From IMG/VR virus record IMGVR_UViG_3300020160_000788, positions 1 through 22,641 of that record: a stretch of DNA of 22,641 nt, one strand, 5' to 3'. Below the pieces are notes generated by a model. It ran no database searches, was not told where the DNA came from, and saw only the letters and a list, made by a program, of their open reading frames with translations. Both the position numbers and the translations under genes were made by a program. The first letter of the stretch is position 1, and every line of letters starts with the position of its first letter. Of the stretch, positions 429-22,235 are shown piece after piece. This stretch comes from a virus.

Positions 429-824
429 TTAATATTTAATAAATGAACCATTTTCTCCGTCTTCGGAGACCTCAATCCAAATCTCTCGACTTGGATACTT
501 TAGTGCAATGATGTTATACAAATCGTCTGACATCATTTCACAACTTTTATAATCAAGGCTTAGAACGGCACCTTGACCATTATACAACGACTCGAGCCAT
601 CGTTTGAACTGGATGAACTCGATGTCCCTATCATTGTGGAGCACACTGATCCACACCCTGAAATGAAAGATGTGACGGTGAGGATTAGCAAGGAACGATA
701 CATCGTACTCATCTCCTGTGGCTAAATTAGGATCTGTGGCCGCCGCTGGATAGCAGTGGATACCTTCTTTGCGTAAGGTAACCCAGATCATTTTGTTTGG
801 TCTGTGATCTTGTCTAATAATCAT
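429..824 (-). CDS. T-fold protein resembling QueD / 6-pyruvoyltetrahydropterin synthase (131 aa)
   Basis: The order of motifs follows the QueD/PTPS T-fold family. There is an early His-Cys (H23, C24), then a His-rich strand (HRHIFHF, residues 49-55) in the place of the zinc-binding LHGH strand, then a D/E-F-x-x-F-K segment (residues 66-74) matching VDFxxLK, then LDYK (90-93) at the place of the catalytic LDH, and a terminal strand ending in acidic VSEDGEN (119-125) where QueD has its substrate-binding Glu. The length, about 120-130 aa, fits. The catalytic His after Asp is replaced by Tyr and the zinc ligands are not perfect, so activity may differ. The gene overlaps the upstream 182-aa gene by 4 bases and sits two genes from a TGT/DpdA-like protein, which makes a 7-deazaguanine link attractive. 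The fold assignment is inferred from pattern only. Confidence 0.6.
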   Translation of the reverse strand: MIIRQDHRPNKMIWVTLRKEGIHCYPAAATDPNLATGDEYDVSFLANPHRHIFHFRVWISVLHNDRDIEFIQFKRWLESLYNGQGAVLSLDYKSCEMMSDDLYNIIALKYPSREIWIEVSEDGENGSFIKY

Positions 825-1369
825 TTTAAAATAATATCGTTTTTATATTGATTCCAGTCTGTAAACTTACTACGATCCTGAAGTGCGTGTAGACTGTGGG
901 ACCACACACCTGGATTAGTTGCTTTAAAATCTTTGTCATCTATTTTAAGCATTGTGTTATAGTTCCATAGTTTAATATATGGAATAGGAACACGGATTTG
1001 AGGGATAAAGTTGTTATAGTCGTTTAACCCGCCATCATTGAACTCTTCAACAGCACTTAGCGGAATATCTAAACTACATAGATAGTCACGATCTAAAAAA
1101 TACGTAATCATATCTTCCCAACTTTTCCAACCTACATAATCATTAAATGCAGGATTAAAACTATGATTGGCACCAAAGAAAATATGTTTAATATGTTTAC
1201 TAGTATCTGTATAAGAATTCTCATCATTTAACAAATGCTCAATAACTTGTTCGTTATGAACTCCTGTTACAAATAAAGTACGCATGCCAAACGCAGGAGT
1301 ATGCTCAACTTCATTACCGATGAAGAAGTTTACCGCTTCACTAACGCCGTCTGTGTAATCACGTTTCAT
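821..1369 (-). CDS. Conserved phage protein of unknown function (182 aa)
   Basis: A soluble, acidic-aromatic protein with no signal peptide or membrane segment. It has a strand-like FVTGVHN near residue 33, HIFFGANHSFNP around residues 62-73, and a C-terminal part rich in aromatic residues (LWNYNTMLKIDDKDF). There is no radical-SAM CxxxCxxC cluster, so it is not an intact QueE despite its setting. ATGA-type 4-base overlaps join it to the TGT-like gene upstream and to the T-fold gene downstream, so the three genes form one translational unit and probably act together. I do not recognise the family; a role in the same modification pathway is inference from position. Confidence 0.7.
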   Translation of the reverse strand: MKRDYTDGVSEAVNFFIGNEVEHTPAFGMRTLFVTGVHNEQVIEHLLNDENSYTDTSKHIKHIFFGANHSFNPAFNDYVGWKSWEDMITYFLDRDYLCSLDIPLSAVEEFNDGGLNDYNNFIPQIRVPIPYIKLWNYNTMLKIDDKDFKATNPGVWSHSLHALQDRSKFTDWNQYKNDIILK

Positions 1370-2898
1370 TCAAATAAACTCGGGTTAAGTACAATTTCTT
1401 TAGGTTCAACTTTGATTTTCTTTTCTGGTTCTAAGTTAGCTTCGATCTCAAAGTGTATGTCCGCATGTGTTTGTGCGTTTACTGTCTTTTTACCTGTTGC
1501 ACCTCTAGTACCAATAATACTCATCCAGTATCTACTGTATTCTTCTACAACAGCATCAGCAATACCTCTATCACTAGTTGAAAATATTGCTTCTACTATG
1601 TCCTTATAATACACTCTATCGAAGCGTTCGTCAACTAACATGGACGGCAATTTGCCCAAATCATATTGTCGATTGGCTTCTTGTACCGCATTAAGATGCA
1701 TCCAAACATTATGTCCCATCATTAGAGCATAACTAAAACTATCCCAACTAGTACGACCCTCTTTACCATTCTTATTTAGGTCGCCTGGCGCATAGATACA
1801 AATATCTTTCATCTGCATTTGATCAATGATTGGACTTGACTCAAAACGTTCAAATATTTTATCTTGTAATACTGCATCTTTGAACAGTCTAGTATCTGTA
1901 GAATACTTTTTATCGTCGGCACTTGCTTGCATACGATAAACCCATTTGGTACGATCTTCAGTTTCTGTGTTAATATAAATCTGTCCATTAGCAGTTGCTA
2001 AGAAGGGACTTGCACAGTCAAAGCTAATAGTAAACTGACTATTATGGTGTTTACGTACAGCACGTTGGATGTCAGTTAACAGCACAGCCCATTCTAACTT
2101 GCTAGTTCCTAAAAAGTGCATCCAATCTTGTTGTCCTTTTTCTAATAGGCCATCAAACCGCAATGCTACTAGACGTTTAAGTACAAGATGAATATCACAC
2201 ATATTCTGTCCACCCATACCCCAACCGTTAAATGCACGGTCGCCATATATCTTTGGATCTGAATATTTCTTCATGTGCTGATACCAACCTTCAGCATCAG
2301 CATGATTTTCACCTTGAAGAACATTTAAGAATTTACAGTTTCCATTCCGATTGTTAATAAAGTATTCATTATTAATAAATGTACCTTGTACTGCTTCGTT
2401 GTATGTACTAATACCAGTTGCCGCCCGTCCGGCAGGACTACGAGCTACCCACGCTGGAATATCAAGACCCATACCATAGTCCATTAGACTATCCATCCAA
2501 GTAAGGACTTGTTTACGCTTTAATGCGGCTTTTGGACAGTTAGGATCCTTCCAGTCAGCAGGCCAAACACCTTTACCAATCTGGAATCCGCCTGAGTCGC
2601 CTAATACCCACGAAGTATTTCGATCTCGATTGCGGAACATGTCTTCGGTTTCGTCTGGCTTGTTAAGATCTAAGTTAGCATGACCTGCTGAATACAGGCA
2701 ATGATCAAAGTAAAATTGACCCTTGTCTGGATTAAGATAGTTAAGACTTTCTACACCATTACTAAGACTAGATGGAATACGTGCAGGATCTACATAATTA
2801 CCATAACGTTGTTTGCCTATAAATGTACTATAGAATCCCGACGTTGCTGGCAAGAAATAAGCGTAATCACTTTGTGTTGCTGTTAGATTTTTATTCAT
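1366..2898 (-). CDS. TGT/DpdA-like guanine transglycosylase (candidate DNA 7-deazaguanine insertase)
   Basis: TRNA-guanine transglycosylases swap a guanine base for a 7-deazaguanine. Their landmarks appear here in order: D101 followed by SGGFQ (102-106), an Asp (D146) in a 'GLDIP' strand, the LQG segment with Q195, the GMGG turn (227-230), and FDC (D294), which matches the nucleophilic Asp of the DCVxPTR strand. GHNVWMHL (H396) matches the last helix His of TGT. The CxCxxC zinc cysteines of bacterial TGT are missing; only single Cys residues (C295, C367) occur nearby. At 510 aa it is longer than bacterial TGT (about 375). Loss of the tRNA-enzyme zinc site together with retention of the base-exchange site is what I would expect from a DpdA-type DNA enzyme. 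It overlaps its neighbours on both sides by 4 bases. A tRNA substrate cannot be excluded. Confidence 0.75.
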   Translation of the reverse strand: MNKNLTATQSDYAYFLPATSGFYSTFIGKQRYGNYVDPARIPSSLSNGVESLNYLNPDKGQFYFDHCLYSAGHANLDLNKPDETEDMFRNRDRNTSWVLGDSGGFQIGKGVWPADWKDPNCPKAALKRKQVLTWMDSLMDYGMGLDIPAWVARSPAGRAATGISTYNEAVQGTFINNEYFINNRNGNCKFLNVLQGENHADAEGWYQHMKKYSDPKIYGDRAFNGWGMGGQNMCDIHLVLKRLVALRFDGLLEKGQQDWMHFLGTSKLEWAVLLTDIQRAVRKHHNSQFTISFDCASPFLATANGQIYINTETEDRTKWVYRMQASADDKKYSTDTRLFKDAVLQDKIFERFESSPIIDQMQMKDICIYAPGDLNKNGKEGRTSWDSFSYALMMGHNVWMHLNAVQEANRQYDLGKLPSMLVDERFDRVYYKDIVEAIFSTSDRGIADAVVEEYSRYWMSIIGTRGATGKKTVNAQTHADIHFEIEANLEPEKKIKVEPKEIVLNPSLFE

Positions 2899-3245
2899 AT
2901 TAAGTGTTGTGCTAATACCATACAGCTAATCCATACCCATATAGTGTTAAATCCTACGAGAGTTGGTAATAGTTTCTTTTCGCTAGCCCATATAAGTGTT
3001 AGGCTTGTTGCTAGAGTAAAGAAATATAACCACCAAATTTGTATTCCAAATATCAAGCCAGGAATAATGATACAGGCCTTCGCCGCCCAACTAGCAAACT
3101 CTACAGTATTGTAGTCAGTCCAGTATTCCTTTGTAAACCACATGCCATAACATTCTTTTATTTTAGTAAATCCTATGTGACGATAAACTGCGCCACACAG
3201 GACTAAGAATGCTAAACATCCAGATAATATCTGTACACTATTCAT
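2895..3245 (-). CDS. Small multi-pass membrane protein (116 aa)
   Basis: Hydrophobic stretches at about residues 4-22, 55-78, 78-88 and 95-113 suggest three or four membrane segments. A soluble loop rich in Trp and Tyr (MWFTKEYWTDYN) lies between the first and second. There is no cleavable signal peptide or catalytic motif. The start codon overlaps the stop of the clamp gene (TAATG) and the end overlaps the TGT-like start by 4 bases, so it is expressed from the clamp promoter. Function unknown; it could be an inner-membrane protein of the infected cell. Confidence 0.7.
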   Translation of the reverse strand: MNSVQILSGCLAFLVLCGAVYRHIGFTKIKECYGMWFTKEYWTDYNTVEFASWAAKACIIIPGLIFGIQIWWLYFFTLATSLTLIWASEKKLLPTLVGFNTIWVWISCMVLAQHLI

Positions 3246-3979
3246 TATTTAGATTGTGCTGGCAAAATGTAGTTATATTCTGTAACACCAGAGTCAACGG
3301 TAATCTGCATAGCGCCTGCATCGCTGATCTTCATAGTAACATTACCAGAAAGATTTAAGATGCTAATAACTTGTTGTACAGGCCATGCCCATGTGTGCTT
3401 TAACTTACCAGTAACATTTGCTTGGAATACAAAGCTACCTGCGTGAGTACTTGCATCACCAAAGAAGAATACTAAGTTTCCATCTTCTGTGCGAACTTGA
3501 AAAACTGTTTCTTCTGTATGTACCGCAGATTGCAACTTCAAACGTTGAATAGCAGTAACACTTGGTTCAAAACTTACGTCCCAACTAGCACCTTTAAATT
3601 TAACAGTCTTTAACTTTTCGTTAATGATGTCAGCATTCATAAAGCGATAGTCGTTTTGGAAATCGCCTGCTTGATTTTCAAAGTGTAACCCTACAGGAAT
3701 TTCTTCACCATTGCGTTGTGCTTTAGTAACGTCAATTTTTGCATTTTCTTTGTACTCTGGATTCTTCAAGTGAAGATTTAACTTATCTAAGTTAGGCATA
3801 CCAAAGGTGCCTTCAAATACATCAACTGCTTTATGAGCACTAGCAGTTACAATAACTGAACGGTCTTCAGCCATTGATTCGATTGTTGTCGTAGTTTTAT
3901 CGCCTGTGACTTTTACCAGTGGTAAAAAGCCTAGTGAATGTGTATGTGCTACGATGTCTGTTAAAATGTCCTTAATCAT
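3245..3979 (-). CDS. 45: DNA polymerase sliding clamp, T4 gp45 type
   Basis: The protein is 244 aa, near T4 gp45 (228 aa), and made almost wholly of alternating strands and short helices without catalytic motifs, as expected for a ring-forming processivity factor. Recognisable parts include FEGTFGMPNLDKLNLHL (55-71), NDYRFMN, and the end, ISDAGAMQITVDSG then YNYILPA, which I know from marine T4-like clamps. In T4 this protein tethers gp43 to DNA and also activates late transcription together with gp33 and gp55. It lies directly downstream of the polymerase gene but has its own strong promoter and an AAGGAG site 6 bases before ATG. The clamp-loader genes 44/62 and regA, which sit between 43 and 45 in T4, are absent here. 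Confidence 0.82.
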   Translation of the reverse strand: MIKDILTDIVAHTHSLGFLPLVKVTGDKTTTTIESMAEDRSVIVTASAHKAVDVFEGTFGMPNLDKLNLHLKNPEYKENAKIDVTKAQRNGEEIPVGLHFENQAGDFQNDYRFMNADIINEKLKTVKFKGASWDVSFEPSVTAIQRLKLQSAVHTEETVFQVRTEDGNLVFFFGDASTHAGSFVFQANVTGKLKHTWAWPVQQVISILNLSGNVTMKISDAGAMQITVDSGVTEYNYILPAQSK

Positions 3980-4030: not shown

Positions 4031-6700
4031 TTAAAACTCAAAGAGTTGATTAAAAGTGTTCTTTTCTTCTGTACTCTTAATGTCCCAACCCAAAACACCA
4101 ATAAGGTTTTCTAGTTTGTTATCAATAATAGTCTGTTCCATTTCTGCGTCGTCAAATGGCAATTCCATAAACCATTTGGGCAACCGTAGTTCGTCTACTG
4201 GATAGGCGACTGATGTAAAGCCAATTGGGTTTGGCTTTAGTTTACAGACAATGACTTTCTGTCCGTCTGTAATTTGCATAGAATACTTGTCACCGTTCAT
4301 GCGGCGTAGAGTATTCCAGTTGATGCTTGCACGGACATGTCCGGGCATATTAGCTTTACCTGCTTTGGCTTCTTTGGCCTGATACTCAGTAATGTTGTTA
4401 GCACGTTTGGGACTACCTTTTTCCCAACCAGGTCTAGCTTTAAACTCACTGCGGAATCTAGTAATATGAGCTAGTACTGCTTCTTCAGACCCAACAGTTA
4501 ATACACGTTCTAAGATGTCACTTAAGAAGTTCTGAATAAATTCAGGAGTGTCACTGCGTTTCAGATCTAAACCCATAGCTTTGATCTTGCCAGGCTTGCC
4601 ATCTACGTCACTACGCTTGCCTTCTTTATCAAAGTAAAGAACTGCATAACGCTTCTTAGTAATGAACAAGCCTTTAATGGCAACAATCTCACGACCTGCT
4701 TTAATAACTTCACCTCGACTATTAGGACAATGAAACGCATCAAGCATGAAACTTGGAAATGTTTTATTAACTTCATCACCGACTTGGTCGTATAAAGCAA
4801 TAACATTTTCTTTAGTCCATGGAATATGCCCAGCATCAATGTCTTTCTTTAATGTGGTGTATCCGGAAAAATAGCAGGAGTCTGTATCACCGTAGATAAT
4901 AGCTTTGCCACGATAGTCAAAATCACCTGTAATAATTTCGTTTACTTTACCAGCCATATGTTTAACAATCTGTCGTCCTGTTAAGGTAGTTGACTGCCCA
5001 ATTCGCTTGTCAAAGAATCTGCAACCAGCGTTAAGGATAGCACCATATAGACTATTTAGGTTAATCTTCTTAACTAGCTGTCTTTTATCCCAATATTCTT
5101 CTTCAACTTTGTTTTCTGCTTTGATGCAGTCTTTTAGTTTGGCCTGCATCTCTTTACGTTCAGCATACCAACGCTTTAATAAGCCAGGAATGATACCTTC
5201 CTTCTCGTAGGTAAAGATTGTACCATTAGCACTAATCATCCAAGGTTGGTTGCTGTCAAAGATTAACTTGTAGACTTCTGCCGCAGAGTGTTCAGTACTA
5301 TTGCCATCTTCCCAGTCAACAGTAATAGTTTTATCAATACGCTGTTCCATCACATACTGATATTCTAAACTTCCAAACATACCTTCCCAGCTTGCGGCAA
5401 ACGACTTCTTCTTAAGTGTCATTTGTTCGTGGATAAAGTTATCTGTTTCAGTCTGACGTAACTGTCCGACAATAGTTTCTGGACCCATATTCAATGCACG
5501 AATCGCAGATGGGTACAGTGAGTTAATGTCTAGTGAACCAATCCATTCGTGAATACCTTCTTTAGGGTATGCAACATAAGCACCTGCCGCACTGTTGTCT
5601 GCATCTTCATCACGCTTTTGTCTATTAGGGACTTGGAATCCTCTGCGATGACATTCGTTAATAATTGCCTGCTCAGTTACAGCAACAGCACCCATTGTAG
5701 TCTGTAGTAGTACAGTACATTCGTGTGCTAGTGTGTTAGCAAGGTCAATAAACTTTAGCTTGTCATCTAGTTTGTTTAACAACAAGGTGTCTTGTCTGTT
5801 ATAGATAATAAACTTGTGAAAGTCATTGTTGTATAACTGATCAAGTGTGCCTTCGTAGACAGTTTTGTTTTCGCCTACTTCCATTTCGCCAATAGCATCT
5901 AGTCGATACGTGTGACGTTCTTCGTATGTGTACTTACGATATAGTTCAAGACTGTCTAAGTGTACACGACCGTGAAAGTCATAGGTAACAGCCTGTTTTC
6001 CATATTTTTCATATTCACGCTTCTTGGGCAATTGTCCCCATAGACAGAAACGTTTAGTATCTTCTTTACTTAACACACGAGTAACACGATTAACAGTATA
6101 GGGTACGTCATAGCCTTCACTGTTCCAACCAGATATAATATCAGCATCTTGGATTAGATCCAAGAACGTTTCCAACATGTCACCTTCGTTGTCAAACAAG
6201 TGAGTATCTGGAATATCGGAAACTAGTTTAACAGCATCTTCCATCTTCATGCCTTTAGGAGGCATTGCCAATGTAATAAGTTTCTTCATCCACTTTAGGT
6301 AAACAGTGATGGCAGTGATTGGCATGAAAGCATCTTCTGGAGTGCTATAGCCACGTTCTGGATCAAAGTCTACCTCGATGTCGAAGAAGCAGATGTTTAG
6401 TTTAGGTGCGTCTTGATTTAAATAGTTTTCAGATAAGTGTACAAAGATCGGATTGATATCGCTTTCGTACAGTTCTTTATTTGAAGCAATAGAAACTTCT
6501 TTACGGAAGTCTTTAGTGTTCTTGCATACTACCTTAGCGAGTGGCTCACCGTAAATACTTGTGAACTTGCCACGCTGATCTGGATAGTAAAATGTGTAGC
6601 GTACAGGATGTTCTTTATAGACCCGTTCGCCTTTATCGTTTCTTTCGACAACTTTAATAGTGTCGTTCTCTCTGTCAAAGAGAGCATCTACATAGCTCAT
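4031..6700 (-). CDS. 43: Family B DNA polymerase, T4 gp43 type
   Basis: This is the replicative polymerase with 3'-5' proofreading, 889 aa from the chosen start (T4 gp43 is 898). The exonuclease motifs are FFDIEVD (Exo I, residues 105-111), ISGWNSEGYDVPY (Exo II, about 189-201) and YNRQD (Exo III, about 300-304). The polymerase motifs are SLDINSLYPS (motif A, D391), KKINLNSLYG (motif B, 544-553) and YGDTDS (motif C, 603-608, with D605 and D607). All catalytic residues are present. I chose the ATG at 6700 because AAGGAG (6710-6705) sits 4 bases upstream and translation there gives MSYVDALFDR. An in-frame TTG at 6730 would extend it by 10 residues, but across the ribosome binding site and repeat. 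Its leader carries a paired repeat that could be a translational operator, as T4 gp43 represses its own mRNA. Confidence 0.97.
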   Translation of the reverse strand: MSYVDALFDRENDTIKVVERNDKGERVYKEHPVRYTFYYPDQRGKFTSIYGEPLAKVVCKNTKDFRKEVSIASNKELYESDINPIFVHLSENYLNQDAPKLNICFFDIEVDFDPERGYSTPEDAFMPITAITVYLKWMKKLITLAMPPKGMKMEDAVKLVSDIPDTHLFDNEGDMLETFLDLIQDADIISGWNSEGYDVPYTVNRVTRVLSKEDTKRFCLWGQLPKKREYEKYGKQAVTYDFHGRVHLDSLELYRKYTYEERHTYRLDAIGEMEVGENKTVYEGTLDQLYNNDFHKFIIYNRQDTLLLNKLDDKLKFIDLANTLAHECTVLLQTTMGAVAVTEQAIINECHRRGFQVPNRQKRDEDADNSAAGAYVAYPKEGIHEWIGSLDINSLYPSAIRALNMGPETIVGQLRQTETDNFIHEQMTLKKKSFAASWEGMFGSLEYQYVMEQRIDKTITVDWEDGNSTEHSAAEVYKLIFDSNQPWMISANGTIFTYEKEGIIPGLLKRWYAERKEMQAKLKDCIKAENKVEEEYWDKRQLVKKINLNSLYGAILNAGCRFFDKRIGQSTTLTGRQIVKHMAGKVNEIITGDFDYRGKAIIYGDTDSCYFSGYTTLKKDIDAGHIPWTKENVIALYDQVGDEVNKTFPSFMLDAFHCPNSRGEVIKAGREIVAIKGLFITKKRYAVLYFDKEGKRSDVDGKPGKIKAMGLDLKRSDTPEFIQNFLSDILERVLTVGSEEAVLAHITRFRSEFKARPGWEKGSPKRANNITEYQAKEAKAGKANMPGHVRASINWNTLRRMNGDKYSMQITDGQKVIVCKLKPNPIGFTSVAYPVDELRLPKWFMELPFDDAEMEQTIIDNKLENLIGVLGWDIKSTEEKNTFNQLFEF

Positions 6701-6712
6701 ATTTCTCCTTAT

Positions 6713-6757
6713 GTCATTTAGGGCTGACAAATACCAACGTAGTCATTTATGGCTGAC
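6713..6757 (-). repeat. Tandem imperfect-palindrome repeat in the polymerase leader
   Basis: Two 16-base copies, GTCAGCC(A/C)TAAATGAC, lie at 6757-6742 and 6728-6713 on the minus strand, differing at one base, with a 29-base period. Each copy has inverted ends, GTCA and TGAC. The second copy ends two bases before the AAGGAG ribosome binding site of gene 43. Placement and symmetry suggest a binding site for a regulator on DNA or mRNA. T4 gp43 is known to bind a hairpin at its own ribosome binding site, which makes autoregulation the first idea to test. Confidence 0.6.
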
Positions 6758-7693: not shown

Positions 7694-8067
7694 ATGCCGT
7701 ATTTGTTTCGTTTAGGTTTAGCCACCGCGCTAACTGTGTTGATGGTATCTAGTTCTTTACTTTTCATATCACCGTGATTAAGGTCTTTATAGCTTGCACC
7801 TACTGCCTTGGCCGCAAGTTTAAACATATCCTGTTCCTCTTGTGTATATGGATGTACAGTTTTCTTTTTACCAAACCAACTCTTAGCATCTATATCTGGA
7901 GCAGTTTTACCGTCAGTACATGCCATGGCCTGCCCCAACCTAAATGCTACATAATCAGTATTAGCCTTTTCAGCATCTCCGTAGACATTGATACCACGAC
8001 TAGACTGACTCTGTCGCTTAGTCATCTTTGTCTGTTTTTTTTCGGTGATAAAATCTTTTGCTCTCAT
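7690..8067 (-). CDS. Conserved T4-like phage protein with MRAKDFITE N-terminus (125 aa)
   Basis: I start it at the second ATG (8067), because the first (8082) would encode five residues across the late promoter GATAAATA, and because the start MRAKDF matches MRANEF and MRAKEF in two other genes here. The N-terminus MRAKDFITE-K is capsid-targeting-like. The body contains YVAFRLGQAMACTDGKTAPDIDAKSW (about 34-59) and a PYTQEEQDMFKLAAKAVGA helix, ending in basic KPKRNKYGI. I recognise the body as common in marine T4-like phages but know no function. It probably belongs to the virion. Confidence 0.72.
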   Translation of the reverse strand: MRAKDFITEKKQTKMTKRQSQSSRGINVYGDAEKANTDYVAFRLGQAMACTDGKTAPDIDAKSWFGKKKTVHPYTQEEQDMFKLAAKAVGASYKDLNHGDMKSKELDTINTVSAVAKPKRNKYGI

Positions 8068-8072
8068 GCTAG

Positions 8073-8089
8073 TATTTATCATATAAATA
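8073..8089. promoter_or_regulatory. Symmetrical divergent pair of T4-late-type promoters
   Basis: The plus strand reads TATAAATA at 8082-8089, the exact T4 late -10 element, and the minus strand reads GATAAATA at 8080-8073. Together they form the inverted repeat TATTTAT-CAT-ATAAATA. Each element ends exactly 5 bases before an ATG (8095 plus, 8067 minus). T4 late transcripts start a few bases after this box, so both mRNAs would begin at or very near the start codon. Confidence 0.7.
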
Positions 8090-8094
8090 TTTCT

Positions 8095-8766
8095 ATGATA
8101 GTTACTGACAATGCGTTATATTTACACATGCCTAAAACGGGCGGCAATTGGGTTAGAGAAGTGTTGAAATCAATAACAATTGAAGATTTTGGACACAGAC
8201 TACCATCTAACGATTTTCATCGCCCTAACGTATATTTGTTTGTTAGAAACCCATGGCAATGGTATAACAGCTTATATCATTATTTGATCTATGGGTCGGA
8301 AATTTATAATCCAGCAGATAATTTTATTGACCCTTTAATTCGAGCATTTGGGCATACTCCTTCATTTACTGAATTTATAGAAGCGTTATGCTATCCTACA
8401 GATATGTATAAAAAGAAAGTGTCAATACTGTCTAAATCTTCAGACTTGGTACGGAATACTTCGCAAACACCGTTTTGGCAAATGTGGCTAGACTCTAATG
8501 GAAGTTTATATGATGTTGTCAGCAGTAATTTTATTGCTACCGCAACTAGGGTAGGTACTACAGAAAATATTGCAATTGATCTTCGACAGATGTTAGTTGA
8601 GTCAGGAGATTTAACTAGTGAAATTGATAGCCTACTGACTACAACCCAACATAAAAATGTTGAAAACTGTTTAGTTGAATATCAAACACTATATACAGAT
8701 CATTTAAAAAGCGTAGTTGCTAACACTTCAAAAACATTAATTGACCAGTTTAACTACGAATTTTAG
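8095..8766 (+). CDS. Sulfotransferase-family protein (223 aa), the only plus-strand gene
   Basis: LHMPKTGGNWVREVL (residues 10-24) matches the 5'-phosphosulfate loop of PAPS-dependent sulfotransferases (PKxGxxW), and LFVRNPWQWYNSLYHY (48-63) matches the 3'-phosphate-binding segment (R-x-P...S). These enzymes move a sulfuryl group from PAPS to a sugar, lipid or protein acceptor. I chose the ATG at 8095; the frame is open further upstream, but that stretch is antisense to the 125-aa gene and would not add to the motif strand. There is no ribosome binding site, and a late promoter box ends 5 bases before the ATG. The codons are more AT-rich than in neighbouring genes, which suggests recent gain. 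It converges on the desaturase gene and overlaps it by 17 bases. Confidence 0.8.
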   Translation: MIVTDNALYLHMPKTGGNWVREVLKSITIEDFGHRLPSNDFHRPNVYLFVRNPWQWYNSLYHYLIYGSEIYNPADNFIDPLIRAFGHTPSFTEFIEALCYPTDMYKKKVSILSKSSDLVRNTSQTPFWQMWLDSNGSLYDVVSSNFIATATRVGTTENIAIDLRQMLVESGDLTSEIDSLLTTTQHKNVENCLVEYQTLYTDHLKSVVANTSKTLIDQFNYEF

Positions 8767-9454
8767 CTAGCCCCACGTAACTAAACAATTTAAACCACAT
8801 CCACCCAATATCAAATTCAAACCAACGACGGCTTAGTTTAGGGTTAGCAGGATCTAAGTGATGATTGTTGTGTAGTTCTTCACCGCCTATTAGGATACCC
8901 CAAGGTACTACATTATGTGAATGGTCTTTTGTTTCACCGTTACGATAACCCCACCAGTGTCCAATGCCGTTAATAAAACCAGCGGCCCAGAATGGTATCC
9001 ATATCATCTGAACACCCCACACTACAAATCCCCAAGGCCCAAATAATAACAGATCTATGATCAACATTAAAAGAATGCCTAGTTTGTGGTGAGGTGTATA
9101 AAGTTTGCGTTCAATCCAGTCTTTGGGAGTACCCATGCCGTATTTCATAACCATATGAGCATCACTGCCAGCACGATTATAATACTTAACTCCACCGAAT
9201 ACCAAGTTCCATATGCCAAATACATGCGGACTATGTGGATCACCTTCTACGTCTGTATTTTGATGATGCTTACGATGGATAGCTACCCATTGTTTGGTAG
9301 TCATGCCGGTCGTCAGCCATAACCAGAAACGCATAAAATGACTTAGCACAGGATGAAATTCAATCCCCCTATGTGCCTGACATCTATGTAGGTACAGTGT
9401 TACACATACTATTGTGATATGTGTCATCACTAATATTGCTATAATTTCTATCAT
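8750..9454 (-). CDS. Fatty acid desaturase (delta-9 type, membrane di-iron)
   Basis: The three histidine boxes of membrane acyl desaturases are present: HRCQAH (23-28), HRKHH (60-64) and HNNHH (195-199), plus the additional GHWWGYRN His (H166). Hydrophobic segments flank them at about 3-20, 38-50, 125-140 and 143-162. The enzyme introduces a double bond in acyl chains of membrane lipids using O2 and reduced ferredoxin or cytochrome. At 234 aa it is shorter than bacterial DesC (about 270-300) but complete in motifs. A late-type GATAAATA box ends 4 bases before the ATG. It likely raises host membrane fluidity during infection; phage desaturases are known from marine myoviruses. Confidence 0.93.
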   Translation of the reverse strand: MIEIIAILVMTHITIVCVTLYLHRCQAHRGIEFHPVLSHFMRFWLWLTTGMTTKQWVAIHRKHHQNTDVEGDPHSPHVFGIWNLVFGGVKYYNRAGSDAHMVMKYGMGTPKDWIERKLYTPHHKLGILLMLIIDLLLFGPWGFVVWGVQMIWIPFWAAGFINGIGHWWGYRNGETKDHSHNVVPWGILIGGEELHNNHHLDPANPKLSRRWFEFDIGWMWFKLFSYVGLAKIRS

Positions 9455-11035: not shown

Positions 11036-11045
11036 TTTCTCTCAT
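10968..11045 (-). CDS. Short Pro/Asp-rich peptide (25 aa), possible upstream frame of the small membrane ORF
   Basis: ATG at 11045 overlaps the Dps stop by 4 bases (ATGA), the junction used throughout this region. The peptide MRENEYPVYPEDDGTDRPRN, then PYSPV, is hydrophilic and uses phage-like codons (GAA, AAT, CCA, ACT, GAT). It ends at TAA (10970-10968) inside the 45-aa ORF, which lies in the +1 frame. Either this is a tiny separate gene, or it is the first part of a frame-shifted protein continuing as LYKGLALFGAGMGG. Sequence error could also explain it. Confidence 0.4.
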   Translation of the reverse strand: MRENEYPVYPEDDGTDRPRNPYSPV

Positions 11046-11476
11046 TTTAGTGTAGAGCGTAGAAACCAGCTGTGTTTACGATGTGCATCTTGACGTTCAG
11101 CTAGGAAGTTTGATAATCCGTACTCTCCAGAGCCATCAGCCATTTTGTAAACCATTGCCATTAGCTGTGCTAGTTTATCACTGTCAGCTAATAGTTCAGC
11201 GGTCATTGCTCTTGGATCAATAACTTGATTTTCATCTTCAACTACTGTTAACATACTAAATCTAGACAAGCTAGCAGGAGTGTATGCACCGCTCTTACGA
11301 ATGTTTTCTGCAAACGCATCTATACTTCCATAAACTTCGTCATAGATTGTTTCAAACAATGTATGGAACTCAAGAAAGTCTGGGCCTTCAGTGTTCCAAT
11401 GAAAGTTCTGTGCCTTTAGTGCAAATGCGTATTCGCTGGCAAATGCTATTTTTAATGCGTTGATTAACTGTTCCAT
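11042..11476 (-). CDS. dps: Dps-like ferritin with intact ferroxidase site
   Basis: The 144-aa protein has the Dps core: KAQNFHWNTEGPDFLEFHTLFETIYDEVYGSIDAFAEN. Residues H26, H38, E42, D53 and E57 match the spacing of the Listeria Dps ferroxidase site (H31, H43, D47, D58, E62), with one Asp replaced by Glu. Dps proteins bind iron at subunit interfaces, oxidise it with peroxide and shield DNA. I chose the ATG at 11476, just after the upstream TAA (TAATATG), rather than the one at 11503, because it removes a 26-base overlap and starts MEQLINALKIAF. The protein lies among virion-type genes, so it may coat or protect phage DNA, or guard the host during infection. Confidence 0.88.
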   Translation of the reverse strand: MEQLINALKIAFASEYAFALKAQNFHWNTEGPDFLEFHTLFETIYDEVYGSIDAFAENIRKSGAYTPASLSRFSMLTVVEDENQVIDPRAMTAELLADSDKLAQLMAMVYKMADGSGEYGLSNFLAERQDAHRKHSWFLRSTLK

Positions 11477-11477
11477 A

Positions 11478-11711
11478 TTACCCACATATCTGTATAACTG
11501 CATAGATACCTGTGACTAACAGGGCCTTAAGAGCCATATCGTCTGCTTCTGCATCTAATCTATCTGTTCTAACTAAGTCTTCCAATAGCTCTTTCGCTTC
11601 ACTTGGGTTTATTTGTCCAGCTTGTAATGCCTGTCCAATCTGATATGCTGTATTAGCACGTTCAGCCGCCCAACCTTTACCTGAGTTAATACATTGCATA
11701 AGTTCGTTCAT
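11478..11711 (-). CDS. Small helical conserved phage protein (77 aa)
   Basis: The protein is mostly helical, with SGKGWAAERANTAYQIGQALQAG (residues 10-32), an acidic middle (PSEAKELLEDLVRTDRLDAEADDM) and a hydrophobic end (ALKALLVTGIYAVIQICG) that could touch a membrane. Its ATG overlaps the lipoprotein stop by one base. I recall similar short proteins in marine T4-likes next to Dps-like genes. Function unknown. Confidence 0.68.
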   Translation of the reverse strand: MNELMQCINSGKGWAAERANTAYQIGQALQAGQINPSEAKELLEDLVRTDRLDAEADDMALKALLVTGIYAVIQICG

Positions 11712-18487: not shown

Positions 18488-19135
18488 TTAAATTTCCGTT
18501 GTAGTAACTAGCTGTTCTACTTTACGTATTTTATCAGCTAAAAAGATGTGGCAAAGGCTTAGAGTCTTCTCATCTGCCACGTAAAAGTGCCCGCCAAAGC
18601 GGTATTTGTTGCTAGTAGTCTTGATTTTAGGCAGTTTAACAGCCCATGCTTTAAAGTTATCAGCAGACTCCCATAGCGCATTTACAGTTACCTTATACTT
18701 GTGAGTATATTCTTTTCTTATGATTGCTTTGGGAGTAGTTAACAAAAACTCTTTGATTTTTTGATCTACGGGCTCTGAAGTTTCTTCTACATAGACACTT
18801 GGAATGCTTAACACTTTATGAAAGAAATCAATATCGTTACTATAAAGTGCCAGCGTACTACCTTCAACACGGAGGGTATAGCTAGATAATGTTTCTAAAA
18901 CATCAACTAGATTCATGCCCATAAAAACATCTTCTATAGTAACAGATGTTCTACTCCAAGACCCCATTTGCATACGAGATAGTTTGTTGTTGGCAAACTG
19001 TTCTTTTAAGGATTCTAGTTCTTCAGTGATATTTTTTAGATTGTTACCTCTAAACTTTGATGCTACAGATAGCCGCAGGGCTATCTTGTAGACATATTTG
19101 CCAAAGAACAGCTTAGTAGTTTTCTTCGAAAGCAT
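18488..19135 (-). CDS. Uncharacterised phage protein (215 aa)
   Basis: The start is uncertain: I use ATG 19135, which overlaps the ClpA gene by 23 bases and begins MLSKKTTKLFFGKYVYKIAL; the frame is open to ATG 19168 without a better ribosome site. The protein is basic at the front and has mixed strands and helices. There is LFFGKYVYKIALRLSV (9-24), a helix TEELESLKEQFANNKL, and near the end HFYVADEKTLSLCHIFLADKI. I recognise no domain. The coupling to the unfoldase gene suggests co-expression. Confidence 0.65.
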   Translation of the reverse strand: MLSKKTTKLFFGKYVYKIALRLSVASKFRGNNLKNITEELESLKEQFANNKLSRMQMGSWSRTSVTIEDVFMGMNLVDVLETLSSYTLRVEGSTLALYSNDIDFFHKVLSIPSVYVEETSEPVDQKIKEFLLTTPKAIIRKEYTHKYKVTVNALWESADNFKAWAVKLPKIKTTSNKYRFGGHFYVADEKTLSLCHIFLADKIRKVEQLVTTTEI

Positions 19136-21353
19136 GTTCTTTGACTTTAAGTTTGATGCCACCATCATCTACATCAATCTCAACAGCGCCGCCATCTTTT
19201 AAAGTACCAAACAGCATCTCGCGACTCAACGGACGTTTAACATCTTTGTCAATTACACGTTGTAGCGGTCTTGCACCCATTTTGCTGTCAAAGCCCTTTT
19301 CAACTAAGTAATCAATAGCTTCGTTACTGATAGTAATTTTAATACCTTTGTCTTTAACTAGGTCTTTCAATTCTACTAAGAACTTGCCAACAATCTTGAT
19401 CATTGTTTCTTTGCTTAATTTGCTGAATGTAATGATACCATCTAAACGATTACGGAATTCCGGAGCAAAGAATTTCTTAAGTTCTTTATCTTCGTATTCA
19501 TTCTCTTGACTACCAAAGCCAATAACATTCTTATCAGCATCGGCAGACCCTAAGTTAGTAGTCATAATAAGAACTACGTTACGGCAATCTGCTTCTTTAC
19601 CATTACTTCCAGTAACTTTACCATTGTCCATTAACTGTAACAAGATAGTTGACACATCTGGGTGCGACTTTTCAATCTCGTCTAGCAACAATACACAATG
19701 TGGTTGTTCCTGTAGCTTAGTAATCAATAGTCCAGCATTTTCTTCAAAGCCAACATAGCCAGGAGGGCTACCAATTAATTTACTTACTGAGTGCTTCTCT
19801 TGATATTCACTCATATCAAAGCGGATCATCGGCACGCCTAGTTGTTTTGCCAACTGCTTTGCGGCTTCAGTTTTACCAACACCAGTTGGTCCCATGAATA
19901 CAAACGAACCAATAGGTTTGTTTTCGGCTTTTAGTCCTGCCTGTGCAACTAGAATCTTATCAACGACTTCTGTAATAGCTTCGTCTTGTCCGTAGACTTC
20001 ACCTTTGAGATTCTTTTCAAGGCTTGCAAGATTTTCACTTTCTTTTTCTTTAACTGTTTCTTCAGGAAGATTAGCCATCTTAGCAAGTTCAAACTGGATC
20101 TCAGCTACGTCAACATTTCTGTTATCAACTTGTTTAATATTAAAGCGCGAACAAGCAACATCAATTAAGTCAATGGCCTTGTCAGGTAACTTTCTATCAG
20201 TCAAATACTTAACGCTTAACTTAACTGCTGTTTCAACTGCCGCATCTGAAATAGTAGCATTGTGATGCTTTTCATAATACTTCTTAATACCTTTAAGAAT
20301 TTCAATAGCCATTTCTGGAGTAGGCTCATCAATAGTAATACGTTGGAATCGACGCATCAACGCACGATCCTTTTCGAAGTACTTGCGATATTCTTCCCAA
20401 GTAGTTGATGCTACAACTTTAATGTTGCCTTTGCTCAGTGCAGGCTTCATCATGTTAGCAAGATCGTTACTACTGTTGCTACCACCTGCGCCTGCACCAC
20501 TAATCATGTGTGCTTCATCGATGAACAACACAGTCTTACCTTTAGTACCTAATGCTTTAAGTACAAGTTTAAAACGTTCTTCAAAGTCACCGCGATATTT
20601 ACTACCTGCAAGCATAGCACTGATGTCTAAGTTGTAAACTGTATATTCTTTTAAGAACTCAGGAACTTGACCGTGAATAATATTAAATGCAAGTCCTTCT
20701 GCAATAGCTGTCTTACCAACACCTGGATCGCCAACTAGCAATACATTATTCTTAGTACGACGACCTAGGCCAAGTGCAATTTGTTCGAGCTCTTCAACTC
20801 GACCAATAACAGGATCAATCTTTGCCTTCTTAACTTGATCGTTAAGATTTGTTGTAAATGCTCGTAAAGCCTTTTCGCTTTGTGCATCTACTACTGTATC
20901 TTCTTCCTCTTCGTTGAGTTCGTTATTAACAAAGTCAGCAAACTTATCTCGTTCAATACCGCCCTTGTTGATATAGTAGACAGCATAGCTACGTTTCTCA
21001 CTAAGGATGCTCAAGAATACATCTACTAGTTCAATGCTTTGACGGCCGCTGAATAATACCTGTGTAAATGCACGATTGAGCACACGCTCAACTGTTTGCG
21101 TTTTCTTAGGTTTAAAACCCTTTGGAGCATTTTCAATTTTAATCTCGTCGAGATTATTTTTTAAATAATGCTCTAGATTAGTTTTGATATATGTAGTATC
21201 GGCGCCGAAGTTTGTTAATAGCTCAAAGAACTTTTCTTCGCATAGCATAGCATATACCAAATGCTCTAGAGTTACATATTCATGCGAGAGTTTTTTACAG
21301 TCTTCAACTGCTTTTTCAAATACTACTTGTAATTGATCACTTGGTTCTACCAT
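19113..21353 (-). CDS. clpA: ClpA-type AAA+ unfoldase with ClpP-docking loop
   Basis: A full two-ring unfoldase, 746 aa (E. coli ClpA 758). Residues 1-140 form the Clp N-domain repeat pair. D1 has GDPGVGKT (208-215) and Walker B LFIDEAH (276-282), and D2 has GPTGVGKT (488-495) and Walker B LLLDE (555-559). Between D1 and D2 there is no ClpB-type coiled-coil insertion. VIGFG (610-614) in D2 matches the IGL/IGF loop with which ClpA and ClpX dock onto ClpP, so it should feed proteins to a protease. No ClpP or ClpS gene is in the window, so the host ClpP is the natural partner. It has its own consensus promoter. It may remove host defence proteins or remodel phage ones. Confidence 0.93.
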   Translation of the reverse strand: MVEPSDQLQVVFEKAVEDCKKLSHEYVTLEHLVYAMLCEEKFFELLTNFGADTTYIKTNLEHYLKNNLDEIKIENAPKGFKPKKTQTVERVLNRAFTQVLFSGRQSIELVDVFLSILSEKRSYAVYYINKGGIERDKFADFVNNELNEEEEDTVVDAQSEKALRAFTTNLNDQVKKAKIDPVIGRVEELEQIALGLGRRTKNNVLLVGDPGVGKTAIAEGLAFNIIHGQVPEFLKEYTVYNLDISAMLAGSKYRGDFEERFKLVLKALGTKGKTVLFIDEAHMISGAGAGGSNSSNDLANMMKPALSKGNIKVVASTTWEEYRKYFEKDRALMRRFQRITIDEPTPEMAIEILKGIKKYYEKHHNATISDAAVETAVKLSVKYLTDRKLPDKAIDLIDVACSRFNIKQVDNRNVDVAEIQFELAKMANLPEETVKEKESENLASLEKNLKGEVYGQDEAITEVVDKILVAQAGLKAENKPIGSFVFMGPTGVGKTEAAKQLAKQLGVPMIRFDMSEYQEKHSVSKLIGSPPGYVGFEENAGLLITKLQEQPHCVLLLDEIEKSHPDVSTILLQLMDNGKVTGSNGKEADCRNVVLIMTTNLGSADADKNVIGFGSQENEYEDKELKKFFAPEFRNRLDGIITFSKLSKETMIKIVGKFLVELKDLVKDKGIKITISNEAIDYLVEKGFDSKMGARPLQRVIDKDVKRPLSREMLFGTLKDGGAVEIDVDDGGIKLKVKEHAFEENY

Positions 21354-21380: not shown

Positions 21381-21408
21381 ATTATACACGAAATATTACA
21401 ATTGTCAA
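21381..21408 (-). promoter_or_regulatory. Sigma70-type promoter for the ClpA-type gene
   Basis: The minus strand has TTGACA (21408-21403), 16 bases, and TATAAT (21386-21381). AAGGAAA precedes the ATG at 21353. The -35 box lies over the end of the dnaJ gene and is followed by AATTGT, making a partial palindrome like that at 7358-7372. It allows early expression of the unfoldase without dnaJ. Confidence 0.8.
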
Positions 21409-22235
21409 CCGTACTTGGCTTTTAATTGTCTTAAAGTCTCAGTGTCTTCGTAATCTACGGATTTTGGAACAACAACATCAATTTTAACATATAAATTGCC
21501 ACGTCTGTGTTCATGCATACCAACAGGTAATCCGTATTGCTGACACGACATAGTAGTACCTGGATTGATGCCCACTGGTATCGTAATATCTAATGTTGAA
21601 TCTTCTATAGTTTGAATCTTAATTGATGTTCCGAGCATTGTATCAAACACTGATATCGGAGCAGTAGTAAAAAGATCTGCTCCTCTACGCTCAAACTGTG
21701 GATGCGGAATTTCTTCAATAACGGCAATTAGATCGCCCCTGGGCAATTGTGGATGAGTATCATCACCCATTTCGTGGAATCGAATACTATCCCCCATAGC
21801 TACTCCTCTTGGAATTTTAAGTTGGAGTGCTTGTTCTCTGCCAGACGGCAATCTAATACTACCAACAATATCTTTACCGTGCAGGATGTCTTTAAGAGTC
21901 ATCTGTACAGTAATGTTAATAGATTTATTTTTACGCATCATACCACGTTGCTGGAATCCGCCAAACGGTCCGCCAAACATACCACCAAAAATATCATTCA
22001 TATTTCCGGTATTAAATTGGAAGCCACCCGGTCCTCCAAACTGCGGATGTGGATTATCGTACTCGGCACGTTTTTGGTCGTCACTGAGTGTTGCGTATGC
22101 TTCTTGCAGTTTTTGAAACTGCTGTGTATCACCACCTCTATCTGGATGGTGTACTGCGGCTAGTTTTCTATAGGCTTTTTTAATGTCCTCGGGGCTAGCA
22201 CCTCTAGGAACGCCTAATACATTATAATAGTCCAT
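21405..22235 (-). CDS. dnaJ: DnaJ-type co-chaperone without zinc finger (276 aa)
   Basis: A J-domain occupies residues 1-62, with HPD at 30-32 and the usual helix II/III pattern (IKKAYRKLAAVHHPDRGG). A Gly/Phe region (66-98) follows, with GGPGGFQF and FGGMFGGPFGGF. The C-terminal substrate-binding domains (105-276) contain no CxxCxGxG repeats, so it is a class II (CbpA/DnaJB-like) protein. It stimulates host DnaK. There is no clear Shine-Dalgarno sequence before the ATG, only an A-rich leader. It lies directly upstream of the clpA-type gene, forming a chaperone-unfoldase pair, though clpA also has its own promoter. Confidence 0.93.
   Translation of the reverse strand: MDYYNVLGVPRGASPEDIKKAYRKLAAVHHPDRGGDTQQFQKLQEAYATLSDDQKRAEYDNPHPQFGGPGGFQFNTGNMNDIFGGMFGGPFGGFQQRGMMRKNKSINITVQMTLKDILHGKDIVGSIRLPSGREQALQLKIPRGVAMGDSIRFHEMGDDTHPQLPRGDLIAVIEEIPHPQFERRGADLFTTAPISVFDTMLGTSIKIQTIEDSTLDITIPVGINPGTTMSCQQYGLPVGMHEHRRGNLYVKIDVVVPKSVDYEDTETLRQLKAKYG

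Follow-up and report, generated by a model that had tools for sequence, protein, structure and literature searches.

A run of overlapping genes beside the DNA polymerase gene of a freshwater phage raises the question of which base, if any, the phage exchanges in its DNA and how that base is supplied. We analysed the whole of the 22,641-base virus record IMGVR_UViG_3300020160_000788 (hereafter the window), a phage fragment in which no tRNA genes were found; it holds the 5′ part of an operon and ends just before the remaining operon genes. The cluster runs along the minus strand from the polymerase gene to the start of a glycosyltransferase gene (Table 1). Stop and start codons overlap by four bases (ATGA) at 2895–2898, 1366–1369 and 821–824, the three junctions around the genes for the 510-aa, 182-aa and 131-aa proteins. 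All three open reading frames are present, and the overlaps bear out the translational coupling proposed in an earlier note on this DNA. That note described a three-gene unit, which holds for the three genes but misses a fourth component, the glycosyltransferase cut by the window edge. Among loci encoding relatives of the 510-aa protein with room on the contig, the downstream genes included that of the 182-aa protein in 59 of 60, that of the 131-aa protein in 42 of 42 and that of the glycosyltransferase in 26 of 26. The 72-aa basic protein is possibly part of the operon as well, with homologues of 76–77 aa at the equivalent position in three related loci.

Table 1. The gene cluster, listed in its order on the minus strand (window coordinates)
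Feature	Position	Strand	Remarks
Family B DNA polymerase	4031–6730	minus	
244-aa protein in clamp position	3245–3979	minus	
116-aa membrane-like protein	between clamp-position gene and 510-aa gene	minus	
510-aa DpdA-type protein	1366–2898	minus	TGT fold, catalytic residues
182-aa protein, probably accessory	821–1369	minus	usually between DpdA and 131-aa genes
131-aa T-fold-like protein, phrog_17812	429–824	minus	phrog_17812, E = 3.5e-31
72-aa basic R/N/G-rich protein	192–410	minus	between 131-aa gene and glycosyltransferase
GT4-type glycosyltransferase, N-terminal 64 aa of ~365 aa	1–192	minus	frame runs off window edge

Elsewhere in the window, the only long gene candidate on the plus strand (7774–8766) had no Pfam match and contains PKTGGNWV, which resembles a sulfotransferase P-loop. 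A fatty-acid desaturase gene, unusual for a phage, lies at 8750–9454 (Pfam E = 1e-13), and a ferritin-like protein of the Dps type is encoded at 11042–11503 (Pfam E = 2e-20). Adjacent genes for a Clp-type AAA ATPase (19113–21353) and DnaJ (21405–22235) make up a phage-encoded chaperone pair.

The 510-aa protein has the fold of a tRNA-guanine transglycosylase (TGT). Its AlphaFold2 model, built from 40 sequences (pLDDT 70, pTM 0.73), had a TGT as its sole significant match when compared with the PDB by Foldseek (E = 5.9e-6), and the best 50 rows returned by VIA-align were all TGTs, with Z scores of about 18–19 over about 300 residues (for instance 18.8 over 307 residues). Structure prediction, which the earlier note had suggested as a check, thus gave the TGT fold. 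A search of the PDB by sequence gave no match, and the 510-aa and 182-aa proteins belonged to no family in Pfam, NCBIfam or PHROGs. The TGT residues that had been read from the sequence are present, and when ten DpdA/TGT-like phage proteins with identities down to 13% were aligned, D101-S-G-G-x-Q106, D146, G196, H261-x-L263-G264 and D294 were invariant. The DSGGFQ motif is matched, D294 aligns with the nucleophile D264 of E. coli TGT, and D101 and D294 together correspond to the catalytic aspartate pair D89/D264 of that enzyme; D101 is the predicted general acid/base and D294 the predicted nucleophile. Two further residues put forward as landmarks are present but less general: Q195 is shared by close relatives, though PA5oct lacks it, and H396 is nearly invariant within its own family only. 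Inspection of the sequence confirmed that the CxCxxC zinc motif is absent. The same motif is missing from the DpdA proteins of nt-1, ACP17, X1 and 9g, so its loss here is not special.

Profile comparison, another of the checks proposed, connected the 510-aa family to phage DpdA proteins. A DpdA2-type profile of six phage TGT-like proteins (nt-1 DpdA2, ACP17, X1, PhiXhv, Motura and GR7B) matched the 510-aa family in hhalign with a score of 121.6 (E = 3.6e-15), compared with 20.5 or less for 40 column-shuffled controls, and this profile alone retrieved the proteins of Phosso, PA5oct and 2.275.O. In a tree, the 510-aa family formed its own clade (support 100/99), apart both from a DpdA2 clade (100/100) and from the zinc-bearing phage group. 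Neither the 510-aa type nor the nt-1 DpdA2 type retrieved the other by tblastn, and no similarity was found to DpdA1 of the phage 9g type (hhalign E = 0.1 over 18 columns). For DpdA3 and DpdA4, reportedly described by Cui et al. 2023, the comparison covered the CP220 genome, which gave no match with the combined profile. Judged by the profile comparison and the tree, the 510-aa protein belongs to a branch of its own among phage DpdA-type transglycosylases, outside both DpdA1 and DpdA2. Relatives occur in at least 367 viral contigs, and distant ones in isolated phages: PA5oct and Paride (35% identity), Vibrio phage 2.275.O (29%) and Sinorhizobium phage Phosso (29.5%). The PA5oct protein, used as a direct query of the viral contigs, retrieved no match. 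A scan of genome contigs found only three relatives in metagenome-assembled genomes, possibly on mis-binned phage contigs; a relative 72% identical to the 510-aa gene lies on a contig binned as Pacearchaeota (L144), which may itself be a mis-binned phage contig.

To place this enzyme in a pathway, we turned to relatives whose contigs extend past the point at which the window stops. In the closest long relatives (G001 and G002, 98% identical), the 510-aa gene is followed downstream by the FolE gene at about 5–6 kb and the QueE gene at about 9 kb. Each of the 17 records tested, which comprised larger relatives and isolate phages, had both genes (the 12 IMG/VR relatives may all be fragments); this supports the view that the DpdA/TGT-fold enzyme belongs to a neighbourhood of 7-deazaguanine genes. 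That the window contains neither FolE nor QueE therefore reflects where the fragment was cut, and for these two steps there is no need to invoke the host-made precursors suggested earlier. Canonical QueD was found in 9 of the 17 records, and most of the remaining eight are incomplete contigs.

QueC followed a different pattern. The 131-aa protein matches phrog_17812, a PHROGs family of unknown function. This family was present in 15 of the same 17 records, and the remaining two were the only ones in which full-length QueC was found. Six further phrog_17812 carriers had QueE and no canonical QueC, so that canonical QueC was found in none of the 21 carriers checked. It was likewise absent from all 80 loci retrieved through the glycosyltransferase (see below). 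A preQ0-type base, as the earlier note had proposed, is not supported by these gene sets, and dDG or dCDG is the more likely base than dPreQ0. G003, X1 and D479 gave weak matches to QueC; these are divergent or partial PP-loop proteins and were not counted as canonical QueC. The one in G003 (L130:334–972) has a C-terminal Cys cluster and is encoded far from the dpdA locus, and the one in Vibrio phage D479 (L131) adjoins an apparent nicotinamide phosphoribosyltransferase gene. Three related loci all carry a phosphoribosyltransferase gene between the glycosyltransferase gene and folE (L133:6230–6736, Pfam E = 3e-11; also L132 and L134), followed in L132 and L133 by a gene for a HIT-domain protein (L133:6729–7097); PA5oct gp163 is a distant phosphoribosyltransferase. 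This enzyme could salvage the guanine released by DpdA.

The 131-aa protein had been described as a QueD-like T-fold protein. In hhalign, its family matched 13 phage QueDs with a score of 36.6 (E = 3e-5), significant in the C-terminal half only, and 100 shuffles of this comparison scored 22.0 or less; a looser alignment spans the entire protein. Invariant residues of the family include H23, H49, H51, H63, R66, E69, S94-C95-E96 and E121, among which H23, H49 and H51 form a putative zinc triad. These features support a putative T-fold assignment. The likeness to QueD/PTPS (PF01242) lies in the putative zinc histidines, the anchoring glutamate and the C-terminal motif, but none of 47 members of the family matched PF01242, and Pfam as a whole gave nothing above noise. 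Moreover, the catalytic Cys and Asp-His, invariant in the 13 phage QueDs, are absent from the 131-aa family, and no fewer than nine records encode the 131-aa protein together with canonical QueD (ACP17, PA5oct, Phosso, phiST, RHph_I1_18 and four related contigs). The protein may thus still be described as T-fold-like, whereas QueD function is not supported, and it is probably not QueD, although it could carry out the QueD step in records that lack a canonical QueD. Since canonical QueC was not found in the phrog_17812 carriers checked, the simplest reading is that the 131-aa protein takes the place of QueC on 7-carboxy-7-deazaguanine (CDG), and the role that best suits its sequence and context would be that of a DpdL-like decarboxylase. 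Cui et al. 2023 reportedly predicted DpdL to be a CDG decarboxylase; the likeness, compared by genomic fit, lies in the expected role after QueE in place of QueC.

Other modules show the same partners around a different transglycosylase. The DpdA2 protein of Vibrio phage nt-1, a phage in whose DNA dPreQ0 has been reported (PMC6884629), and its homologues in ACP17 (gp123) and X1 resemble the 510-aa protein in being TGT-like, in lacking the zinc site and in having identical catalytic motifs. The ACP17 and X1 modules also share the 131-aa protein, the glycosyltransferase, FolE and QueE with the 510-aa type. DpdA2 differs in forming a separate clade that is not directly retrieved by sequence, and nt-1 has QueC, whereas the 510-aa module has none. 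Because the 131-aa gene adjoins the DpdA2 gene in ACP17, X1 and BUCT-ZZ01, the 510-aa type and DpdA2 appear to be interchangeable within one module.

The 182-aa protein is probably accessory. Its AlphaFold2 model (pLDDT 83) had no clear match in the PDB (best Z = 7.0), and in ACP17 its gene adjoins folE. We considered whether it is a truncated QueE, as QueE rows appeared in the fold comparison at Z = 5.4–6.2, but the hhalign comparison with QueE (E = 0.63) spoke against this.

The glycosyltransferase is represented in the window by its N-terminus, in which 57 of 64 residues are identical to those of a full-length relative of about 365 aa (L132). All seven aligned full-length homologues have the EX7E motif, and Pfam PF00534 (glycosyltransferase group 1) matched the members in X1 (E = 8e-12) and ACP17 (E = 2.5e-4); the full-length relative itself had no such match. 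Homologues are encoded beside a DpdA or 131-aa gene in PA5oct (39% identity), Phosso (49%), ACP17 (39%) and X1 (24%). Across 50,697 phage records, the glycosyltransferase was found in 19, which belong to five lineages, each with deazaguanine genes. A search of viral contigs seeded with the glycosyltransferase alone returned the 80 loci mentioned above, 37–44% identical to the ACP17 member. Where at least 4 kb was available on both sides (41 loci), DpdA and the 131-aa gene were present in all 41, FolE in 40, QueE in 35, the 182-aa gene in 28 and QueC in none. In PhiXhv (L147, 118500–126500), which has no 131-aa gene, a distant glycosyltransferase gene and a QueC gene are about 1 kb apart. The closest known enzymes are GT4-type glycosyltransferases, with which the window-type enzyme shares GT-B/GT4 motifs (EX7E), and T4-type DNA glucosylation is a functional analogue in phage DNA modification; the window-type glycosyltransferase differs in its linkage to deazaguanine genes. 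Hydroxymethylcytosine was considered as the acceptor, as some carriers encode a thymidylate-synthase-fold enzyme, but the complete ACP17 and X1 genomes encode none, which makes this acceptor unlikely there. The constant association with the deazaguanine genes hints at a possible glycosylated deazaguanine in phage DNA.

Bringing these observations together, we favour, with some reservation about the scheme as a whole, an operon by which the phage swaps guanine in its DNA for a 7-deazaguanine made without QueC, followed by a probable GT4 step. FolE and QueD, from phage or host, would lead to CPH4, from which QueE would make CDG. The 131-aa protein, as a putative zinc T-fold enzyme, would then convert CDG to 7-deazaguanine (DG), most likely by removing the carboxylate, as proposed for DpdL. 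The 510-aa DpdA would exchange guanine in DNA for the deazaguanine base, with D294 as nucleophile and D101 as acid/base, after which the GT4-type glycosyltransferase would probably act on the modified DNA. DG is the most likely base to be made, and CDG the next. Of this scheme, the TGT fold, the catalytic residues, the gene linkage and the lack of canonical QueC were observed; the base, the decarboxylation, DNA as the substrate, the acceptor of the glycosyltransferase and the protective effect are inferred. Points that speak against the scheme are the weak QueC-like PP-loop proteins of G003 and D479, the combination in PhiXhv of QueC and a distant glycosyltransferase without the 131-aa gene, the T-fold match that is significant in the C-terminal half only, and the eight records in which canonical QueD was not found. 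The more specific outcome, a glycosylated 7-deazaguanine that is supplied by FolE, QueD, QueE and the 131-aa protein, inserted by the new DpdA branch and given a sugar by the GT4-type enzyme, we put forward only tentatively. To our knowledge, no such base has been reported in DNA.

Several other readings share part of this evidence. One unlikely alternative is that dCDG is the final base, with DpdA inserting CDG and the 131-aa protein binding, delivering or protecting CDG without decarboxylation. The presence of QueE without QueC suits it, the retained putative zinc histidines and anchoring glutamate make it plausible that the 131-aa protein binds a deazaguanine, and dCDG is reportedly among the bases described by Cui et al. 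2023; the invariant H63, C95 and E96, however, look catalytic rather than merely binding, to judge from their conservation. We give a lower probability still to the reading in which the 131-aa protein is QueD, the host supplies the precursors and the base that DpdA puts into the DNA is of the preQ0 type. The T-fold likeness and the eight records, mostly incomplete contigs, in which canonical QueD was not found agree with it, and some DpdA phages do rely on host genes (PMC6884629), but the lack of the QueD catalytic residues, the coexistence with canonical QueD in ACP17, PA5oct, Phosso, phiST and RHph_I1_18, the phage-encoded FolE and QueE nearby and the absence of QueC from every glycosyltransferase-retrieved locus all argue against it.

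An RNA substrate for the 510-aa enzyme, whether tRNA as for TGT or another RNA, instead of DNA seems very improbable, even though its fold is that of TGT and DpdA and TGT are homologous. It lacks the zinc site, groups with phage DpdA-type proteins by profile and by a shared HxLG/ISxD signature, is replaced by DpdA2 in the equivalent ACP17 and X1 modules and is encoded beside the DNA polymerase and clamp genes.

Among the closest known systems are those for deazaguanine in Achromobacter phage Motura and in PA5oct (PMC7824862). That jumbo-phage review credits PA5oct, which carries a 510-aa-type gene, with a system for deazaguanine synthesis and incorporation; the general finding is therefore not new. 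The passage on it mentions neither the 131-aa protein nor the absence of QueC nor a glycosyltransferase, and in the open-access literature searched we did not find the module described here, with its separate DpdA branch, its consistent absence of QueC where the 131-aa protein occurs and its linked glycosyltransferase.

Protection from restriction has been established for other DpdA phages (PMC6884629), and the modified DNA proposed here should likewise be shielded. If the scheme is true, hundreds of aquatic phage genomes would encode a DNA-modification operon that does without QueC and combines an unrecognised DpdA branch with a tied glycosyltransferase, a module also present in the growable isolates PA5oct, Paride and ACP17. 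It would add a phage route to restriction resistance and give a function to three gene families that are at present listed as unknown.
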